52,644 bases of DNA from Verrucomicrobiota bacterium. Its GTDB lineage: Bacteria > Verrucomicrobiota > Verrucomicrobiia > Palsa-1439. A program made the position numbers and the translations under genes. Below the pieces are notes generated by a model, which saw nothing but the letters and a program-made list of their open reading frames with translations, was not told the origin of the DNA and made no database searches. Positions 27,843 to 40,715 of the stretch are shown piece after piece. The stretch covers positions 1 to 52,644 of the forward strand of contig VHCW01000025.1 in the NCBI GenBank assembly GCA_016871575.1. The letters are read 5' to 3'. Each line of letters begins with the position of its first letter. The stretch's first letter is position 1.

Positions 27843-28886
27843 TCAACTGCTGTGGCGGATGTGCACGATGTCGCCGTCTTCCACGATGTACTCTTTGCCT
27901 TTCACCAACAGTTTACCGGTTTCCTTGAGGACCACTTCGGCTTGGTGGCCTTTCGCGCCGGCGGCGATGAGATCGGGGTATTTCATCACCTCGGCGCGGA
28001 TGAAACCGCGGGCGAGGTCGCTGTGGATGGCGTGGGCGGCCTCGACGGCGGTCGCGCCGTGGCGGATGGTCCACGCCCGGACCTCGTCTTCGCCGGTGGT
28101 GAAGAAGCTGATGTAGCCGAGCGCCTTGTAAAGGAGGCGCGTGAGGAGGTGAATCGCCGGTTCTTCAACGCCGAGGGCGGCGAGGAATTCGGTGCGCTCC
28201 TTCGGATCCTCAATCTGGGCGACTTCGAGTTCGAGTTTGGCGTCAAGCTCGCAACTGTAGGCCGCGTCACCCGACGCGGCGCCGCGTGAGGTCACGTGGC
28301 CTACAGGCCCGTTGTACGCGATGACCAACGGTTTGAGCGTGAGAAACTGTAGTGACCGGACGCGTTTCTCTTCGCCTTCGGCCCACGCGTAATCGCGCAA
28401 CAGTTGACCGGCTTCGAGGTGGGGTTTCAGAAGTTCGAGGAGGGCGGCTTCCTTGGCACGGTCGTCGTCCCGCTTCTTCTTCTGGTCCTCGGCAATGCGG
28501 TCGAGGCGTTTTTCGATGAGGCTGAGGTCGCTGATGGCCAGTTCGAGGTTCATCTTGTTGATGTCCTCGTGCGGATCGGTCTCGCGGTCGAATGCGCGCA
28601 CCACGTGACAGAGCGCATCCATGTTCTTGAGCGTTTGCAGCCACTGGTCGCGCGCCTTGGCCTGCTGGGGCGGCGCGGGGGCAAGCGTGCACTCGATTTC
28701 GGCGTACTTGGTCTTCTTCGGGTTGTACATCGCCGAGAGCCGATCCACGCGGGAGTCGGCAACCTTGACGGCGCCGATGTGGTATTCGCCGGGGCGGACG
28801 AGAAGGTGGCTCAATCCCATGCCGGTGAGCAGCGAAAACACGGTCTTCTTGCCGGTTTGCGGCAGGCCGATGAGGGCAATCTTCAT
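27843..28886 (-). CDS. ychF: Divergent YchF/Obg-family P-loop protein with TGS domain
   Basis: The 347-residue protein has P-loop GLPQTGKKT at 7-15, the YchF-like helix region NLELAISDLSLIEKRLDRI at about 113-131, a long charged coiled-coil insertion, and a C-terminal DUF933/TGS region with ALGYISFFTTGEDEVRAW, HSDLARGFIRAEV and GDIVHIRHSS. YchF hydrolyses ATP and binds ribosomes. Two switch elements are degenerate: the DxxG of G3 is not visible between residues 60 and 90, and the NxxE of G4 reads AYNGPVG. A 52-bp palindrome encodes residues 194-211 at that point. The start overlaps the aminotransferase stop by 4 nt. Confidence 0.85.
   Translation of the reverse strand: MKIALIGLPQTGKKTVFSLLTGMGLSHLLVRPGEYHIGAVKVADSRVDRLSAMYNPKKTKYAEIECTLAPAPPQQAKARDQWLQTLKNMDALCHVVRAFDRETDPHEDINKMNLELAISDLSLIEKRLDRIAEDQKKKRDDDRAKEAALLELLKPHLEAGQLLRDYAWAEGEEKRVRSLQFLTLKPLVIAYNGPVGHVTSRGAASGDAAYSCELDAKLELEVAQIEDPKERTEFLAALGVEEPAIHLLTRLLYKALGYISFFTTGEDEVRAWTIRHGATAVEAAHAIHSDLARGFIRAEVMKYPDLIAAGAKGHQAEVVLKETGKLLVKGKEYIVEDGDIVHIRHSS
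28255..28306. repeat. 52-bp near-perfect palindrome inside ychF coding sequence
   Basis: Bases 28255-28306 fold onto themselves with 22 Watson-Crick pairs, one G-T pair and three mismatches out of 26. The outer arms are CTGTAGGCC and GGCCTACAG; the centre is ACGCGGCGCCGCGT. It is in frame and encodes about 18 residues (PVGHVTSRGAASGDAAYS) at the usual G4 position. It looks like an inserted interspersed repeat. Confidence 0.85.
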
Positions 28887-30052
28887 TTCAGCGAACCACA
28901 AAAAGCCGCAATGCGTTCGAGGCCTTTGGTGATGTTCTCCATCGAGCAGGCGTAGCTCAGGCGGATGTGCGCGTCGCTGCCAAAGGCAATACCGGGCACA
29001 CACGCGACCTTTTGCTCCTCAAGGAGTCGTTCGCAGAACTGGACGCTGCCGAGGCCGAAGCTGGAAATATTCGGAAGCATGTAGAACGCGCCCATCGGCT
29101 TGACACACGTGACGCCAGGGATACTCGCCAGTTTCTCGTGCATGAACGCGCGGCGCTCGACGAAAGCGCGATGCATGTCGCTGATGAACGATTGGTCGCC
29201 CTTGAGCGCTGCGATGGCGCCTTTTTGGGCGAAGCTGGTCGGATTGCTGGTGGAGTGGGATTGAATGGAATCAATGGCGGCCGCGATGGGGTCAGGCGCG
29301 GCGATGTAGCCAAGACGCCAGCCCGTCATGGAGTAGGCTTTGGAAAAACCGTTGACGGTGATGGTGAGATCGTAAATCTCCTGCCCAAGGGATGCGAGAC
29401 TGACGTGCGGCGTGTGGTCGTAGGTGATCTTCTCGTAAATCTCATCGGACAGAATCAGGATGTCCTCTTCAACCGCGACTTCGGCAAGCGCCTGCAGTTC
29501 TTCCTTCGTATAGACCGCGCCAGTCGGGTTGCTGGGGGAATTGAGGATAATCAATTTCGTGGCGGGCGTCATGGCAGCACGGAACTCATCCGCCGTCAGT
29601 TTGAAACCGTTCGCCTCCTGCGTCGGCACGATGACCGGCGTGGCATCCGCGAGCTTGACCATCTCCAGGTAGCTCAACCAATACGGCGCGGGAATGACAA
29701 CTTCATCCCCCACCCCGCAGGTGGCGATGATGGCGTTGTAACACGAATGTTTGGCGCCGCAGTTAACGATGACCTGGCTGGGTTTGTAGTTGAGGCCATT
29801 TTCCTTCTTGAGTTTCTCCGCGATGGCGGCGCGCAATTCCGGCGTGCCGCTGGAAGGCGTGTACTTGGTGAACCCGTCGGCGAGCGCGGCAGCGGCGGCG
29901 TCCTTGATGTGCTGCGGCGTGTCGAAATCCGGTTCGCCGGCGCCGAAGCCGCAGACGTCAACGCCTTCGGCCTTGAGTTTCTTGGCCTTCGCGTCAATGG
30001 CAAGGGTGAGCGACGGGGTGAGGGTCGTGGTTCGTGGAGCTAGTGAGTTCAT
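28883..30052 (-). CDS. Class I/II pyridoxal-phosphate aminotransferase (aspartate type)
   Basis: The 389-residue cytoplasmic enzyme is close to bacterial subgroup Ib aspartate aminotransferases. Motifs are GAGEPDFDTP, SSGTPELRAAIA, VNCGAKHSCYNAI, NSPSNPTGAVY, the internal aldimine lysine in NGFSKAYSMTGWRLGY, and HIRLSYACS at the C-terminus (substrate carboxylate arginine). It exchanges amino groups between aspartate and 2-oxoglutarate; related prephenate or LL-DAP aminotransferase activity cannot be excluded. It overlaps both neighbours by 4 nt in the minus-strand run. Confidence 0.92.
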   Translation of the reverse strand: MNSLAPRTTTLTPSLTLAIDAKAKKLKAEGVDVCGFGAGEPDFDTPQHIKDAAAAALADGFTKYTPSSGTPELRAAIAEKLKKENGLNYKPSQVIVNCGAKHSCYNAIIATCGVGDEVVIPAPYWLSYLEMVKLADATPVIVPTQEANGFKLTADEFRAAMTPATKLIILNSPSNPTGAVYTKEELQALAEVAVEEDILILSDEIYEKITYDHTPHVSLASLGQEIYDLTITVNGFSKAYSMTGWRLGYIAAPDPIAAAIDSIQSHSTSNPTSFAQKGAIAALKGDQSFISDMHRAFVERRAFMHEKLASIPGVTCVKPMGAFYMLPNISSFGLGSVQFCERLLEEQKVACVPGIAFGSDAHIRLSYACSMENITKGLERIAAFCGSLK

Positions 30053-32196: not shown

Positions 32197-34368
32197 ATGC
32201 CCATGCGATTGCTTCTTCTTCTCACGGTAGCTGCCAGTGCCGTGGCGCAGGACAAGATCGTTTTCGTCAAACGGTTTCAGTTCAACTCGAACCACTATTA
32301 CACCGACTTCATCAACAGCCAGTTCCTGCCGGGCGGGAACATTTGCCTCCTTGACACGAAGTCGGGAAAGGTAACCGAGGTGGTGAAAGGACTGGAAGGC
32401 GGCGTGTTCGGGCGGTTCGATTTGAGCTTCGATGCGAAGCGGATTGTGTTCGCGTGGAAAAAGGGCGCTGATGATGGCTATCGAATCTACGAATGCGGCA
32501 TTGACGGCTCAGGGTTGCGGCAGTTGACGTTTCCGGAGCCGAACGAGACGGAGTTGGTGCGGAAGTACCAGAAGGGCTATCACCACGGCACCGATGACAT
32601 GGATCCGTGTTATCTCCCAGATGGCGGGATTTGTTTTATCTCGACGCGCTGCCAGTTCGGAATTCTATGCGACGGCGCGGACGTTCTCACGACAACCGTG
32701 CTGTACCGGATGGACGGCGACGGAAAACGAATCGAGAAATTGACGAACAGTTCCGTCAGCGAAGCGACTCCCGTGGTGATGCACGACGGACGGATCATGT
32801 ACACGCGTTGGGAATACGTGGACAAGGGCGCGGTCAGCGTGAAATGCCTCTGGGCAATGCGCCCCGACGGCAGCGGTTCGTCGGAGGTTTACGGCAACGA
32901 CATTTCGTTGCCGCCGACGTTGATTCAAGGACGGCCAATTCCCGGTTCGAGCATGGAGTTTGTCGTGCTTGGCACACCGCATTACCCGCAGAGCGCAGTC
33001 GGCACTGTCATCCGCATTGACACGACGAAGAACATTCGCACCCGCGAGCCGATGACGTACATGACGCCCGACGTGGATATTCAGTCGGAGGGGGGCTTCG
33101 CGTTCCGTCAGGCGGACGGCAGTTGGAAACAGGACAGGACAGGCAAAGGACCGCTTTTCCGGGACCCGTACCCGCTCTCGAAGAAGTTGTTCCTTGCATC
33201 GCACAAGCCCGAAGGTGCGGAATGGAACGCCGCGAAAGGCTACGCGCTCTATCGCATCGAAGAAGGCGGACGAACCGAGTTGATCTACCGCGACGAAGCG
33301 ATCAGTTGTTTCCAGCCGGTGCCGTTGCAGCCGCGACAACGTCCGCCGGTGTTGTCGGAGGCGCGCGATCTGCAACTGGCGGCGAAAGGGTTGGCGGTCT
33401 GCGTCGTGCAGGACGTGTATCACGGGCTGGAGAACGTTCAGCGGGGCGAGGCGAAATGGCTCCGCGTGATGGAGCAGGTGCCGCGTCCGTGGGCCGCGCG
33501 TTACTCCTGGAACGGCGACTCGTACGACCAGCAGCACGTTGTCGTCAGCAAGGACGCTGCGCTCGGCCTGAAAGTGCAGCACGGTATCGTGCCCGTCGAA
33601 GCGGACGGCTCGGCGCATTTCACCGTGCCGGCGGACCGGAACATTTATTTCCAGCTTCTCGACAAGAACTTCATGGAACTCCAGCGGGAGCGCACCTACG
33701 TCAACTATCGCCCCGGCGAGAAGCGTTCCTGCATCGGCTGCCACGAGATGCCGCACACCGTCCCGCCGCCGAGCAACCGATCACCGCTCGCTTCGCTTCG
33801 ACCGCCATCAGCGCCGGAGCCGGCGCGACCGATTCATTACCCTGCGGACGTGCAGCCGGTGTGGGACAAGCATTGCATCAAGTGCCACGGCGGCAAGACG
33901 CCAAAGGCGAGACTGGATCTGACAGGGACGCCGACGGCGTTGTTCTCGCGTTCCTACGAGAGCCTGATGCCGGAACGGCGGAAACAACCCCGAACGGATC
34001 GAGGTTTGCTCGGCCCGATCATCGGCGAGAACCATCCGAAGACCGGCAACGTCCATTACCTCCCGGCGAAGTCGCTCGGCTCGCACGCGAGCGTGTTGGT
34101 GGCGATGCTCAGCCGCGGGTTGGTCCGTCTTGCCGATCCGAAGGACGCCGAGCGGGCAAAGAAACTTGAACAAATCCACAACAATGTTAGTCTTAGCTCC
34201 GAAGAAATGCTGCGCGTGACGACATGGATTGAATCGAACGGCCAGTACTACGGCTCGTACTGGGGACGCCGGAATGTGCAGCACAAAGATCACCCGAATT
34301 TCCGTCCGTCACCGACGTTTGCCGTTGCGACCAGCATGGTGTCGCCGGTGCCGGAAGCGGAACGTTAA
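32197..34368 (+). CDS. Exported HzsA-like diheme protein
   Basis: The protein has 723 residues with a Sec signal peptide (ASAVA-QD). Residues 20-300 are TolB-like beta-propeller repeats (YLPDGGICFISTRC; PDGSG). A middle domain resembles that of hydrazine synthase alpha subunit-related proteins (VPVEADGSAHFTVPADRNIYFQLLD, split by G474). Two c-type heme sites follow: CIGCH at 512-516 and CIKCH at 560-564. Such proteins are common in PVC bacteria that make no hydrazine, so a periplasmic redox or binding role is more likely. It is 19 nt before the cupin gene and first in a four-gene operon. Confidence 0.82.
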   Translation: MPMRLLLLLTVAASAVAQDKIVFVKRFQFNSNHYYTDFINSQFLPGGNICLLDTKSGKVTEVVKGLEGGVFGRFDLSFDAKRIVFAWKKGADDGYRIYECGIDGSGLRQLTFPEPNETELVRKYQKGYHHGTDDMDPCYLPDGGICFISTRCQFGILCDGADVLTTTVLYRMDGDGKRIEKLTNSSVSEATPVVMHDGRIMYTRWEYVDKGAVSVKCLWAMRPDGSGSSEVYGNDISLPPTLIQGRPIPGSSMEFVVLGTPHYPQSAVGTVIRIDTTKNIRTREPMTYMTPDVDIQSEGGFAFRQADGSWKQDRTGKGPLFRDPYPLSKKLFLASHKPEGAEWNAAKGYALYRIEEGGRTELIYRDEAISCFQPVPLQPRQRPPVLSEARDLQLAAKGLAVCVVQDVYHGLENVQRGEAKWLRVMEQVPRPWAARYSWNGDSYDQQHVVVSKDAALGLKVQHGIVPVEADGSAHFTVPADRNIYFQLLDKNFMELQRERTYVNYRPGEKRSCIGCHEMPHTVPPPSNRSPLASLRPPSAPEPARPIHYPADVQPVWDKHCIKCHGGKTPKARLDLTGTPTALFSRSYESLMPERRKQPRTDRGLLGPIIGENHPKTGNVHYLPAKSLGSHASVLVAMLSRGLVRLADPKDAERAKKLEQIHNNVSLSSEEMLRVTTWIESNGQYYGSYWGRRNVQHKDHPNFRPSPTFAVATSMVSPVPEAER

Positions 34369-34387: not shown

Positions 34388-35053
34388 ATGAAAAAACTGC
34401 TGACCGCACTGATCGTTCTCACCGTCATCGCCGCCATCACGGCCAATGCCGCCAAGGACAAACTGCCGCGATTCACCAACGCGCAGTTCTACGACGCCAA
34501 AGGCAATTTCCTTCCCGAGAAGGCGAAGGACGCCTACTTCACGCTGATGAAGTTCCACGGCTACCCAGTGTTTCCGGGACTGCGCGAGAAAATGGCCGTG
34601 ACTGACTTCGGCGCCGGCAGGTTTCTCGAATGCGGCCTTGGGTGCATGATGTTTCACAATAACGAAAAAGACCGCTACATGTTGATGGACCTGTTTCTGT
34701 TGCCGAAACAAATGTTGCCCGAACACTGGCACGTGGCCACCGACAAGAACCCCACCAAGCTCGAAGGCTGGCTCGTCCGCCACGGCATGTCCCACATCGT
34801 CGGCGAAGGCGAACCCAACCTCAGCAGGGACGTCGTCATCCCGAAATGCCATGCGAACGGCACCGTGACCGTCAAACATGAAGTCCTTGCCAGCCCCGGC
34901 GACTTTGTCCCCCTCAACCGCGCCGACGCGCACCACTGGCAATACGGCGGCCCCGAAGGCGCCATCATCACCGAGGCCGCCAATGTCCACGACGATTCCG
35001 GCGTCCGCCTGCTCGACAAGAAAATGAACGACGCCTATCACGGCAAGAAATGA
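34388..35053 (+). CDS. Exported cupin protein, D-lyxose-isomerase-like
   Basis: The protein has 221 residues from ATG 34388, with AGGAGA at 34378-34383. Signal peptide about 1-21 (ITANA-AK). The cupin metal motif is visible as PEHWH (two histidines), followed by EGW and a later DAHHWQYGG, matching the H-x-H...E...H ligand pattern of lyxose isomerase-type cupins. A periplasmic sugar isomerase or a binding protein is possible. It overlaps the next gene by 4 nt. Confidence 0.7.
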   Translation: MKKLLTALIVLTVIAAITANAAKDKLPRFTNAQFYDAKGNFLPEKAKDAYFTLMKFHGYPVFPGLREKMAVTDFGAGRFLECGLGCMMFHNNEKDRYMLMDLFLLPKQMLPEHWHVATDKNPTKLEGWLVRHGMSHIVGEGEPNLSRDVVIPKCHANGTVTVKHEVLASPGDFVPLNRADAHHWQYGGPEGAIITEAANVHDDSGVRLLDKKMNDAYHGKK

Positions 35054-38000
35054 AGTGGCGGCGGTTACTGTTGATTGGAGTAGCGGTTGCGCAGATCAGC
35101 GTTGCTGACGAAGCGCAAACGAAAGCGTTGCGGCTGGCGATTCAAGACCTCTCGCAATCGTTCCCCGACAAGTACACTCGCGCCGCTGACTTCCTGAAAC
35201 GGCTCGATGGCGTCAAGGACGATGCCGAGTTCCGCGCGCTTCAGCGTGAGGCGTTGTTGGCGAATCCGCTCCTGGATTTCGACAAAATGTTGGTCGTCCG
35301 TCGCCGTGAGATCGAGAAGGTGGATGCGAAGGGCAAGAAGGTGCGCGGTTCAAACGGTCTCCCGCAAAACTGGCAGGGCAACTCGACGCTGCCACGCAGT
35401 GGTTTTCACAACGAGATCGCCGTGCTGCAACTCGATGGCACGTTGACGACACTCTACCAACCGGAGCGCGACGTATTCGTCGGCGACGTGGACTTGCATT
35501 GGGACGGGAAACGGATGTTGTTCTCATCCGTCGCCGCCGACAACACCTGGCAGGTCTTCGAGATCGGCGTTGATGGCAAGGGACTGCGCCAGGTCACACC
35601 CGGCGACGACAAAGACGTTGACAACTACGACGCCTGTTATCTTCCGGACGGCGCAATCCTGTTTGGCTCCACGGCGACGTTCCTCGGCGTGCCGTGCGTG
35701 TTCGGCAGTTCGTTCATCGCCAACCTCTACCGGCTTGAACCGAACGGCTCAATCCGCCAGATCACCTTCGAGCAGGAACACGACTGGCATCCGACCATGT
35801 TGCCCGACGGCCGCGTCCTGTACCTGCGCTGGGAGTACACCGACTCCTCGCACTCGAACTCCCGCATCCTCTTCCACATGAACCCCGACGGCACCGACCA
35901 ACGCGCCTATCGCGGCAGCGGTTCATGGTTCCCCGGCTCAGTGTTCTACGCGCGTCCGATTCCCGGCAAACCGAACTGGGTCTGCGGCATCGGCACCGGC
36001 CACCACGGCGTCGCCCGCGCGGGACGTTTGCTCATCTTCGACACGGCACGGGGGCGCGCTGAAGCGCGCGGCATCGTGCAGGAGATTCCACGGCGCGGCC
36101 AGCCCGTCGAGCCGATTGTGCGCGACCAGCTCGTTCAGGGCTATCCGCAGTTCCTCTCGCCGTGGCCGCTCAACGACAAATATTTCCTCGTCTCCTGCAA
36201 GCCCGACGCCAAAGCGCCGTGGGGCATTTACCTCGTGGACGTCTTCGACAACATGACGTGCATCAAGGAGCTTCCCAACGAGATGTTGATCGAGCCGGTG
36301 CCGTTGTGCCCCACGCCAATGCCGCCGGTGATTGTGCCGCGTGTTGACCTTGCCAAGAATGACGCCATCGTCCACATCCATGACATCTATCAAGGTCCCG
36401 GCCTCGCCGGCGTGCCGAAGGGGACAGTGAAATCGCTGCGGCTGGTCGAGTATGTTTTCTCGCGCCGCAAAATGGGCGGCCTCTATGGCACGCTCGGCGC
36501 CGACGGCCCGTGGGACATCCGCCGCATCCTCGGCACTGTGCCCGTGCGCGAGGACGGCTCCGCACGCTTCAAGATACCGGCCAACACCCCCATCATGTTC
36601 CAACCGCTCGACGACCAACAGCAAGCGCTCCAGATCATGCGCACGTGGATCACCGCCATGCCCGGCGAAACGCTCTCGTGCGTCGGTTGCCACGAAGACC
36701 TGAGCGCCGCGCCGTTGACGCGCGCCAGCCACGCCTCGCGCGAGCGCCCCGACGAAATCAAACCATGGTACGGCCCGACACGCGGTTTCGGCTTCGAGCG
36801 CGAAGTCCAGCCCGTGCTCGACAAGTATTGCGTCGGCTGCCACAACGACAAACACGCGCTCGACCTGCGCGGCGGCCGTTTGTTGACCGACTGGAAAACC
36901 CAGATGGCCGGCCACTGGCGTCCTGGCGGCAAATTCACCGAGTCATACTGGCAATTGCAACGCTACGTCCGCCGCCCCGGCATCGAGAGCGACCGCCCGA
37001 TGCTCACGCCGATGGAGTTCCATTTCAGCACGACCGAGCTTGGCCAGCGTCTTCGCAGCGGGCACCACGGCGTCAAACTCGACACCGAATCGTGGGATCG
37101 TCTGGTGACGTGGGTGGACTTGAACGCACCGTTCTTCGGTCGCTGGAGCGACGTGCCCGGCATTGATACGAACCACCTGTTCGCCATGAACCAGCGATTG
37201 ATTGACTGCCGCAAAAAGTTTGCCCCGCAAGGCCCCATCGTTGACCCCGAACTCATACCCGAAACTCCACGCTACGATTCGACGCCAGTTACTCCTCCGC
37301 CACTCACCACTCACCACTCACCACTCACCAACTGGTCTTTCAGCACCGACGAAGCCGTGCGCCGTCAGCAGCAAACAGCGCCTCCGGGCACCGGCGCCAA
37401 GCTCATAATCGCCGCTGCCACGCCAGAACACCAGCCCGTGCAGGTGAAAGCAAAGCATCTTCGCATCTGGGCAGGTCCGTCGCGCTGGCTACAAATTGCC
37501 GAGGCGGAAGTGTTCTCCGGCAATCAGAACATTGCCCGTGGCCAACCAGCACGACAGTCGAGCATCTACGGCGGCGCCGACGCCAAGCGCGCCGTTGACG
37601 GCAATCCCGACGGCCGATGGAGCGCCGGCTCCATCATGCACACGATGAACGGCGCCAGCGAATGGTGGGAAGTGGATTTACCGGACGATGCCGTCATCGA
37701 GCGAATCGCCTTGTGGCCGCGCACCGGCCTCCAAGAACGCCTCGCCAGCGCGAAAGTCCAACTCATGGACGCTCAGCGCAAAATCATTTGGGAACAAACC
37801 ACGCCGTCGAAGATTGCCGACAAGGTTGTCTTCAACGTCAGCGAACCCCTCAAGGACTCGGGTATTGCGATGAGGTGGATTCCCCCCGGCGAATTCAACG
37901 GCACGAAGATCGAAAAAGGACTCTGGATGAGCCGTTGCGAGATCACCAACGAACAGTTTAAGCGATTCAACCCCGCGCACAACAGCGGCACCGAGGAGCG

Positions 38001-38610
38001 CCACGGCTACCAGTTCGGCGTCACCGGCTACGACCTCGACCAGCCGCAACAACCCGTCGTCCGCGTCTCATGGACCGACGCGATGGCTTATTGCCAATGG
38101 CTCTCACAGAAGATCGGCAAGAAAGTGACGCTGCCGACCGATTCGCAATGGGAATGGGCCTGCCGCGCCGGCACCGCGACGCCGTTCTGGTTCGGCGACC
38201 TCGACACCGACTTCTCGAAGCGCGCCAATCTTGCTGACCCGATGCTCGCCCATTTCTCCGGCAACCCCTATGTGCAGGATTGGAAAGCCGCCGCGCACAA
38301 AGCCCCAAACAGATACGACAACTGGATTCCGCAGGACCCGCGTTTCAACGATGACGGTTTCGTGACCGAGCCGGTCGGCAAGTATTTGCCGAATCCGTGG
38401 GGACTCTGCGACATGCACGGCAACGCCGCCGAATGGACTGCGTCCGCAGCGGGCGACGAGAGGATTGTTCGTGGCGGTTCCTGGCGTGACCGTCCATCCC
38501 GCGCCACCTCCAGTTTCCGCCTCTCGTACCGTCCCCACCAGAAAGTCCACAACGTCGGTTTCCGCATCATCTGCGAAGAACCGTCCGTTGTAAACGTCGC
38601 AACTAAATGA
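35050..38610 (+). CDS. Giant fusion: HzsA-like diheme + discoidin-like + SUMF1 domain protein
   Basis: The protein has 1186 residues with a signal peptide (QISVA-DE). Residues 120-300 are beta-propeller-like, with the same WEYTDSS/WEYVDK motif as the first HzsA-like protein. Residues 430-540 are the HzsA-like middle domain. Hemes are at CVGCH 544-548 and CVGCH 594-598. Residues about 800-900 are F5/8 type C/discoidin-like (NIARGQPARQSS, AVDGNPDGRW, WWEVDL), a carbohydrate-binding type. Residues about 945-1180 are a SUMF1 fold (MRWIPPGEFN, LPTDSQWEWACRAGT, MHGNAAEW, IVRGGSWRDR) without FGE cysteines. A 7-bp repeat at 37301 sits in the linker. It overlaps the cupin and glycosidase genes by 4 nt each. 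Confidence 0.85.
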   Translation: MKWRRLLLIGVAVAQISVADEAQTKALRLAIQDLSQSFPDKYTRAADFLKRLDGVKDDAEFRALQREALLANPLLDFDKMLVVRRREIEKVDAKGKKVRGSNGLPQNWQGNSTLPRSGFHNEIAVLQLDGTLTTLYQPERDVFVGDVDLHWDGKRMLFSSVAADNTWQVFEIGVDGKGLRQVTPGDDKDVDNYDACYLPDGAILFGSTATFLGVPCVFGSSFIANLYRLEPNGSIRQITFEQEHDWHPTMLPDGRVLYLRWEYTDSSHSNSRILFHMNPDGTDQRAYRGSGSWFPGSVFYARPIPGKPNWVCGIGTGHHGVARAGRLLIFDTARGRAEARGIVQEIPRRGQPVEPIVRDQLVQGYPQFLSPWPLNDKYFLVSCKPDAKAPWGIYLVDVFDNMTCIKELPNEMLIEPVPLCPTPMPPVIVPRVDLAKNDAIVHIHDIYQGPGLAGVPKGTVKSLRLVEYVFSRRKMGGLYGTLGADGPWDIRRILGTVPVREDGSARFKIPANTPIMFQPLDDQQQALQIMRTWITAMPGETLSCVGCHEDLSAAPLTRASHASRERPDEIKPWYGPTRGFGFEREVQPVLDKYCVGCHNDKHALDLRGGRLLTDWKTQMAGHWRPGGKFTESYWQLQRYVRRPGIESDRPMLTPMEFHFSTTELGQRLRSGHHGVKLDTESWDRLVTWVDLNAPFFGRWSDVPGIDTNHLFAMNQRLIDCRKKFAPQGPIVDPELIPETPRYDSTPVTPPPLTTHHSPLTNWSFSTDEAVRRQQQTAPPGTGAKLIIAAATPEHQPVQVKAKHLRIWAGPSRWLQIAEAEVFSGNQNIARGQPARQSSIYGGADAKRAVDGNPDGRWSAGSIMHTMNGASEWWEVDLPDDAVIERIALWPRTGLQERLASAKVQLMDAQRKIIWEQTTPSKIADKVVFNVSEPLKDSGIAMRWIPPGEFNGTKIEKGLWMSRCEITNEQFKRFNPAHNSGTEERHGYQFGVTGYDLDQPQQPVVRVSWTDAMAYCQWLSQKIGKKVTLPTDSQWEWACRAGTATPFWFGDLDTDFSKRANLADPMLAHFSGNPYVQDWKAAAHKAPNRYDNWIPQDPRFNDDGFVTEPVGKYLPNPWGLCDMHGNAAEWTASAAGDERIVRGGSWRDRPSRATSSFRLSYRPHQKVHNVGFRIICEEPSVVNVATK
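37301..37330 (+). repeat. 7-bp tandem repeat (CACTCAC x4) within coding sequence
   Basis: Four exact copies of CACTCAC (37301-37328) plus CA. The unit is not a multiple of three, so gain or loss of one copy shifts the frame and removes the discoidin and SUMF1 domains. It encodes the LTTHHSPLTN part of the linker between the cytochrome and discoidin regions. Confidence 0.9.
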
Positions 38611-40715
38611 AGCGCTTGCTGATTCTCAGCCTCCTGCTCGCTGTCGCTCGCGCGGACGACAACTGGCCCGCGTTCAGTGTCGAGTGGAACAAGGCTGCGT
38701 CGTCGCCAGCCGACGTGTCGTTCCTGCTGAAACCCGCCAATGATCGGATCACGGTCAAGAATGGCCACTTGGTACGCGGCGACGGCTCGCGTTTCCGTAT
38801 CTGGGGCATCAACGCCACTGGCCAAGCTGGTTTACCGGCGACAAATGCGGCGCCGATCATCGCAGCGCGGCTCGCGGCACTCGGCATCAACTGCGTCCGC
38901 TTCCATTTCCTCGACAAGCCCGGCGCGCTCATCGTCGGGGACCGCAACGACACGCGCGCTCTCGACCCCGACGCCTTCGCGCGGCTTGACCGGTTCATCT
39001 TCGAGTTGAAGAAGCGCGGCATCTACACCGACCTGAATCTCAATGTTTATCGCACTTACAAGTCCGGCGACGGCGTCCGCGAGCACGAACAACTCGGCAT
39101 TGGCAAGGGCGCGACCTATTTCGACGAGCGGCTCATCGAACTCCAGCGCGAGTATGCTCGTCAGTTGCTCACGCACGTCAACCCGCACACCGGCCGCGCC
39201 TACAACGACGAACCCGCAGTGGCCATCGTCGAATTCGTCAACGAAAACTCGCTGGTCGAGGCGTGGTTGAACGGGCGTCTCGAAGGCACGCAGACGAAGA
39301 AACCTGCCGGCACATGGCACGACATCCCGCCCAGCTACGCCGAGGCGTTGACGGAGAAGTACAATGCTTGGCTCAGACGCCACCAGATTCCCGTTTTAGA
39401 TGAAACAATTGTTTCACGTAAAACGGGAATTCAGGGGGCGGTGCAACGGCTGCGCAAGAACGAGATCGCGAAGGCCGAGGCGAAACGATTTGCCGCCGAA
39501 GCCGCCTTTTACATGGAGATTGAGCGCGACTACTTCCGCGACATGGCGAAGTTTCTGCGGGACGACCTCGGCGTGAAAGCGTTGCTCGTCGGCAACAGCG
39601 ATCACGGGCACTATCACTCCTGTTACCCGCTGGTCGCGTCGCTGGCGCAACTGGATGTTGTGGACAGCCACGTTTATTGGCAGCATCCGAGCTACATCAC
39701 GGATCCGAAAACCGGCCGGCGCACTGGCTTCAGGATTCCGAACACACCGATGGTGGATAACCCGCTGCACAGCAGCGTCGTCCAGTTGTCACGAACGGCC
39801 GTCGCCGGCAAACCGTTCACGGTATCCGAAGTGAACCATCCGTTCCCGCACGAGTACGCGGCCGAGGGCGTGCCGATTTTGGCCGCCTATGCCGCGTTGC
39901 AGGACTGGGACGGCATATTCTGGTACACGCTGGCGCATCAGGACATGACGGCGATGGAGAAGACGGCGCTGGCGCACTTCGATTTCGCCAAGGACCCGGT
40001 GAAGATGAGCCAGCTCGCCACCGGCGCATTGCTCTTTCTTCGCGGCGATGCGCAACCGGCGCGACGCACGGTGTCGCGCACCTACAGCCGCGAACAGATT
40101 ATCGAGAGCCTGCGCCTGCCCAGCAGTGAACGACCGTATTTCACGCCCGGTTTTCCGCTGGCGTTGCCGTTAGTGCACTCCGTTCGTGTCACATCCTTCG
40201 ATGGTCCGCCGACGGGCAAGTTTGAACCGATCAGCGGCGATGAGTTCGTGTCCGACACGCGCGAACTGACGTGGCGCAAGGGTCTGGTGACGATTGACAC
40301 GCCGCGTTCGCAAGCGGTTGTTGGACGCGGCAGCGGACAGACGAAGAATCTTCGCACCGAACTCCAGACATCGTTTGCTGCTGTCACGCTCGGCGCGCTC
40401 GACAACAAACCGGTCGCTGCCGCCTCGCGTTTGCTGCTGACGGTTGGCGCGCGCGTTGCCAACACCGGGATGGTTTGGAACGAGAAGCACACCTCGCTCG
40501 ACAAGTGGGGCACTGCGCCGACACGAATCGAGCCCGTCACCGGTACGATTGTGCTCACTGGTCTGGAGTCAGCGCGCGCTGTCGTCGCACAGCCGCTTGA
40601 TGGCGCCGGTCAACCGCTCGGTCGCCTGATTGCACTACAGCAGGTTGACGGCAACTGGGTACTCGACCTTGCACAACGACCGACCACTTGGTTCGTGATT
40701 CAAGTCAGCCGGTGA
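38607..40715 (+). CDS. Exported glycoside hydrolase (TIM-barrel, GH5/clan A-like)
   Basis: The protein has 702 residues with a signal peptide (AVARA-DD). The barrel shows FRIWGINATGQAG, INCVRFHFLDKPG, an acid/base pair Asn212-Glu213 in EFVNENS and a nucleophile candidate Glu408 in FTVSEVNHPF, the arrangement of clan A retaining glycosidases. A beta-rich C-terminal region follows. The start overlaps the preceding stop by 4 nt, making it the last gene of the operon. Residues 261-275 (IPVLDETIVSRKTGI) are encoded by an A+T-rich palindrome that looks inserted. Substrate unknown. Confidence 0.8.
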   Translation: MKRLLILSLLLAVARADDNWPAFSVEWNKAASSPADVSFLLKPANDRITVKNGHLVRGDGSRFRIWGINATGQAGLPATNAAPIIAARLAALGINCVRFHFLDKPGALIVGDRNDTRALDPDAFARLDRFIFELKKRGIYTDLNLNVYRTYKSGDGVREHEQLGIGKGATYFDERLIELQREYARQLLTHVNPHTGRAYNDEPAVAIVEFVNENSLVEAWLNGRLEGTQTKKPAGTWHDIPPSYAEALTEKYNAWLRRHQIPVLDETIVSRKTGIQGAVQRLRKNEIAKAEAKRFAAEAAFYMEIERDYFRDMAKFLRDDLGVKALLVGNSDHGHYHSCYPLVASLAQLDVVDSHVYWQHPSYITDPKTGRRTGFRIPNTPMVDNPLHSSVVQLSRTAVAGKPFTVSEVNHPFPHEYAAEGVPILAAYAALQDWDGIFWYTLAHQDMTAMEKTALAHFDFAKDPVKMSQLATGALLFLRGDAQPARRTVSRTYSREQIIESLRLPSSERPYFTPGFPLALPLVHSVRVTSFDGPPTGKFEPISGDEFVSDTRELTWRKGLVTIDTPRSQAVVGRGSGQTKNLRTELQTSFAAVTLGALDNKPVAAASRLLLTVGARVANTGMVWNEKHTSLDKWGTAPTRIEPVTGTIVLTGLESARAVVAQPLDGAGQPLGRLIALQQVDGNWVLDLAQRPTTWFVIQVSR
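39387..39430. repeat. 44-bp near-perfect palindrome inside the glycosidase gene
   Basis: Twenty of 22 base pairs match around a centre at 39408/39409; arms ATTCCCGTTTTA and TAAAACGGGAAT, core TGAAACAATTGTTTCA. It is far richer in A+T than its surroundings and in frame. The right half contains TGTTTCACGTAAAACG, 14 of 16 bases of the consensus parS site. Confidence 0.85.

Follow-up and report, generated by a model that had tools for sequence, protein, structure and literature searches.

The window, the whole stretch of 52,644 nucleotides that was analysed from a Verrucomicrobiota bacterium (contig VHCW01000025.1), carries at positions 39,387–39,430 a 44-bp palindrome, to which no strand was assigned. 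Its two arms (39,387–39,408 and 39,409–39,430) match at 20 of 22 pairs with a loop of 0 nt. The palindrome lies within an open reading frame (ORF) of 702 amino acids on the plus strand (38,607–40,715) and is translated in frame as IPVLDETIVSRKTGI; its G+C content is 34% as against 61% for the host ORF. The sequence-only reading had described an A+T-rich, in-frame palindrome of these dimensions in a G+C-rich ORF, which we confirmed. It had also called the host ORF a glycosidase, and this label was not confirmed since we found no Pfam family in the ORF at E<=1e-3. Two other large ORFs of the window (32,197–34,368 and 35,050–38,610) gave domain-level matches to PF18582, the middle domain of the hydrazine synthase alpha subunit; an FGE-sulfatase domain and F5/8-type domains were also present in the second one.

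We recovered six orthologs of the host ORF (58–71% identity), all of them from other families. At the residues encoded by the palindrome, these orthologs had an unrelated stretch of nearly equal length. In this ORF the palindrome takes the place of host residues without adding to their number. The insertion at this site was therefore accompanied or followed by the loss of host sequence.

When the palindrome and its flanks were used as a query, related places were detected on four other contigs of the same genome. The genome search for copies that had been proposed was carried out with patterns and recovered six copies of the window palindrome, as against none with a reversed pattern used as control. 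The core TGAAACAATTGTTTCA (39,401–39,416 in the window) was identical in five of the six copies and had one mismatch in the sixth. The alignment of the six copies delimited a left outer arm ATTCCCGTTTT (39,387–39,397) and a right outer arm AAAACGGGAAT (39,420–39,430), separated from the core by two 3-bp spacers that differ among the copies, AGA (39,398–39,400) and CGT (39,417–39,419). We found no copies of this family in 56 relatives, and a search of the GTDB contigs for the exact sequence of the window palindrome returned no match.

The sequence-only reading had noticed that half of the palindrome lies within two bases of the consensus parS, which is literally true (TGTTTCACGTAAAACG, 14/16). 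The conserved TGTTTCACGTGAAACA was matched at just 11–12 of 16 positions in the other copies, and parS identity was rejected; the resemblance comes from the CGT spacer, and none of the other sequence types of the family shares these letters. That the palindrome is a parS site, or an A+T-rich palindrome that arose by chance or evolved locally, thus appeared highly improbable to us. The 14 shared letters and the near-equal length of the corresponding stretch in the orthologs would fit such an origin, but the parS letters are not kept in the other copies, no palindrome as good arose in 200 copies of the window simulated with a first-order Markov model (the best one with 22-nt arms had at most 17 of 22 pairs), and the existence of six near-identical copies, with none in the control, refutes it.

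Two of the six copies bracket a single gene on another contig (C27:23113-23886), one of them being located a few bases past the stop codon and the other roughly 50 bp ahead of the start codon. The product of this gene (258 amino acids) matched the Pfam domain PaaX_M, a central Cas2-like domain according to its Pfam description, and more weakly PaaX_C. A protein search recovered about 15 paralogs of this PaaX-like gene in the genome of the window. Another genome (G002) gave four matches and a few more gave one or two each, but a genome of the same genus (G001) gave no match, a patchy distribution that fits mobility. The genome of the window is thus unusually rich in these genes, as no other genome searched had more than four matches.

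Most of these paralogs are enclosed by a pair of palindromes, each about 40 bp long, the sequence of the pair being usually specific to the paralog. For instance, the gene at C4:85611 is flanked on both sides by CCGGTGAATCAGAGGAACGATCGTTCCTCTGATTCACCGG, while the palindromes at C210 have TATAATTATA as their centre and those at C36 have TACATATGTA. End to end, eleven units of this genome measured 881–920 bp, and the master unit, about 0.9 kb long, can be described as a palindrome, 30–75 bp, one PaaX-like gene, usually 2–40 bp, and a second palindrome.

Palindromes without a gene were also found for other members of this ensemble. A core, GGAACGATCGTTCC, occurred exactly 13 times in the genome and never in the control. 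The solo copies with this core fell into three outer-arm types, and each type matches the palindrome arms of a single PaaX-like gene, its presumed parent (TGTCCGG for the parent on C79, CCGGTGA for C4 and TACCGG for C31). In the TGTCCGG type, the spacer changed together on both arms above the level of shuffles (5/500), hinting that the paired form of the palindrome may matter; such covariation was weak or absent in the other arm types.

Several sites exhibited the traces of insertion. The solo copy in mutY is a clean in-frame insert of about 15 codons that is absent from 19 relatives. One of these is the ortholog of the same genus, with 80% identity over the matched part, and the other 18 are more distant. 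The copy in hypF, also in frame, corresponds to a stretch 3–9 codons longer than in most relatives of the same family. A complete unit of 915 bp on C4 separates the gene of an ABC ATPase from that of its permease, whereas only 23–40 bp lie between these two genes at the empty sites of three relatives (G010, G003, and G006). The suggestion that the invasion of ORFs is a habit of this genome was thus supported, with copies of related families inside mutY and hypF in addition to a distinct repeat in ychF.

We found no target-site duplication, and direct repeats in the flanks were not above the control (permutation p 0.96). A target preference for inverted repeats was detected (permutation p=0.001), carried mainly by one site (L119, C31:14220), where inverted repeats of the host, 12 bp each (GCCAACCTTTCC and GGAAAGGTTGGC), directly enclose a solo palindrome. 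This single case provides a lead, suggesting insertion into the loop of a hairpin. At one of two other sites, a chromate transporter gene that is complete has a palindrome behind it (C64:9498, L013/L006), and at the second site the same palindrome is found again in front of a decayed 3′-end fragment of a chromate transporter gene (C2:56215, L009/L008), as if the palindrome and the adjoining host DNA had been copied together.

Surveys of the class (34/384 genomes) and of the phylum (26/388 genomes) yielded 70 non-redundant PaaX-like loci. We recovered a strong palindrome upstream of 51 of them, downstream of 39, and on both sides of 31, the distance between the palindrome centres having a median of 866 bp. 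Only 2.7% of null windows reached the palindrome score, so that the chance of palindromes on both sides is well under 1%. Palindromes were detected on both sides at 31 of the 70 loci only, and some palindromes are decayed. In 22 class-level pairs, 16.1 of the central 18 bases agreed within a locus, as against 7.4 between loci. The similarity of the cores also followed that of the proteins (Mantel r=0.23, 0/2000 permutations). Phage records contained no palindrome-PaaX unit, viral contigs no relative of the PaaX-like units, and plasmid records no unit, only two weak matches, one of which bears the annotation of a PaaX-family regulator. No two full units turned out to be near-identical, so that no instance of recent transposition was recovered.

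The PaaX family takes its name from a repressor of transcription, and an operator could lie where the upstream palindrome is found. The palindromes could thus be operators and the PaaX-like proteins ordinary repressors of themselves and of a few targets, the dispersed copies being the sites of a regulon. The location of the upstream palindrome, some 30–75 bp before the start, fits this reading, as do the matches of all 31 aligned members to both PaaX_M and PaaX_C (Pfam, E<=0.01) and the fact that E. coli PaaX is their nearest solved relative (E 3e-18, together with 3kfw). We nevertheless considered it unlikely, because a matching palindrome is also present past the stop codon, copies lie in the middle of ORFs (mutY, hypF, and the window ORF), the full unit on C4 is an insertion with empty sites in relatives, and an operator does not need a near-perfect palindrome of 40 bp. 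Moreover, no palindrome pair was present at ten paaX genes of the ordinary kind, taken from E. coli and from plasmids and including several close relatives in Sinorhizobium; none of them had a downstream palindrome and three had an upstream one.

The proteins themselves also differ from the regulators. All 70 members of the survey carry both the Asp of [FY]D[LIVF] and the Gln of LQxS; a motif search recovered these in 66 and 69 members, respectively, and inspection of 4 misses supplied the rest. E. coli PaaX reads LLLSEG and LAPSLM at these motifs, and both residues are also absent from 3kfw and from a Pseudarthrobacter PaaX. All 70 members thus exhibit the hallmarks of Cas2-like proteins, an Asp ending strand 1 and a QxSV motif, their nuclease function being putative. 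Judging from these motifs, the palindrome-bracketed group keeps a Cas2-type signature that the regulators compared appear to have lost. The Pfam Cas2 model (PF09827) was matched by 4 of the 31 aligned members, and one member reached the NCBIfam Cas2 cut-off. The PaaX repressor equivalog model (TIGR02277) scored 43–72 bits in five members, below its curated cut-off of 264.55 bits. No PaaX-like member had a Pfam match to Y1_Tnp, and the alignment contained no invariant His. An AlphaFold model built from three sequences had a pLDDT of 52.6, too poor for a fold search. The N-terminal part is presumably a winged helix, as in PaaX proteins in general.

The PaaX repressor of phenylacetate degradation (8a39) is homologous to the PaaX-like proteins over most of its length, with PaaX_M and PaaX_C in common (PF20803/PF08223). 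In E. coli, however, its gene is part of the paa operon and has no palindrome pair, and the protein has neither the Asp nor the Gln that are invariant in the PaaX-like group. With the nucleases of the Cas2 and VapD type, some members share a middle domain that can be aligned to Cas2 models over the invariant Asp and the QxSV stretch; in contrast to these nucleases, the PaaX-like proteins combine this domain with a fused N-terminal domain and PaaX_C, and the unit of about 0.9 kb contains neither a Cas1 gene nor a CRISPR array.

Among known mobile systems, the closest parallel is provided by the GTAG REPs or REPINs that form “REPtrons” with RAYT transposases (PMC3733652, PMC3116915). Both systems consist of short palindromic repeats scattered as solo copies, together with a gene flanked by those repeats, and both exhibit occasional insertions into genes, among them DNA-repair genes. 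As in REPtrons, the scattered non-autonomous copies match the repeats that flank the gene. Here, however, the partner is PaaX/Cas2-like without a Pfam Y1/HUH match, and the repeats are near-perfect palindromes of about 40 bp, with essentially no loop, present in few copies and nearly always with a sequence of their own for each paralog. Their ends were of the ATTTCCG, TTGTCCGG, TCCGGTG and TCTACCGG types, and none of these carries the GTAG tetranucleotide. The CGTC REPs, which have a CGTC tag, loops of 4–5 nt and no known dedicated transposase (PMC3733652), and the Rickettsia palindromic elements, which invade genes in frame (PMC10969869), share with the present repeats the presence of translated palindromes in frame in unrelated genes, as seen here in mutY (a clean addition of 15 amino acids), hypF, and the window ORF. 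The gene-invading Rickettsia elements, which are of the CGTC type, likewise have no known mobiliser. They differ in that the repeats described here bracket a partner gene; the loop is also 0 nt here and the CGTC tag is absent from the family. The lack of target-site duplications distinguishes them from DDE-type MITEs and insertion sequences.

The palindromes might alternatively be moved by another enzyme, such as the RAYT that would be expected for the GTAG-type REP repeats of this genome, the PaaX-like gene being cargo or a regulator. The very presence of GTAG-tagged REP-type repeats in the genome and the precedent of CGTC REPs without a dedicated transposase (PMC3733652) speak in its favor. 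We judged it a little less plausible even than a role as operators, since the sequence of the palindromes tracks the PaaX-like protein, units of about 0.9 kb leave no room for a second gene, and the GTAG tag and the REP loop are absent from these palindromes.

The palindrome-bracketed PaaX-like genes found across the phylum thus suggest a family of miniature mobile elements that had not been described before. The window palindrome is probably a solo, non-autonomous copy of such a miniature mobile repeat, and the PaaX-like protein would be what mobilises the units and palindromes; we infer this role because it is encoded by the sole gene of the unit. According to this scenario, the N-terminal part would read the core of the palindrome, each PaaX-like protein recognising its own, and the Cas2-like part would cut, presumably at a hairpin or cruciform formed by the palindrome, thereby moving palindromes or whole units. 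Single palindromes would be copied to new sites more often than whole units, and the new sites would include in-frame positions inside genes. Counting against this scenario are the lack of target-site duplications and of near-identical full units, the operator-like position of the upstream palindrome, the detection of both palindromes at just 31 of 70 loci, the replacement of host residues in the window ORF, and the absence of units from phage records and viral contigs. Since most paralogs carry their own palindrome, this specificity is directly testable.

By analogy with REPtrons, whose behavior it shares, we rated the system as resembling a known kind with a different putative mobiliser. More tentatively, the PaaX-like proteins may form a new class of DNA-mobilising enzymes, a possibility to which we give somewhat less than even weight, in which the palindrome would be recognised by the N-terminal domain, and a nuclease domain of the Cas2 type, working without Cas1, would cleave its hairpin or cruciform form and insert a new copy; ordinary PaaX repressors could then be relatives that have lost the active-site Asp. 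In open-access papers we found no link between PaaX and either palindromic repeats or transposition. If such an activity were shown, the mobiliser itself would be of a new class, and a second palindrome mobiliser besides RAYT would come from the PaaX/Cas2-like superfamily. PaaX-like genes annotated as regulators would then have a function beyond transcription, and a Cas2-like protein would be working outside CRISPR.

The window contains a second palindrome (28,255–28,306), located in the YchF ORF on the minus strand (27,843–29,003), which starts with CTGTAGGCCGCG and ends with GGCCTACAG. The sequence-only reading was right in considering the two palindromes unrelated, the one in ychF being a separate GTAG-tagged doublet of the REP type. 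A search of the genome with this repeat gave about 51 match rows, and on contig C20 the repeat recurs at regular intervals.
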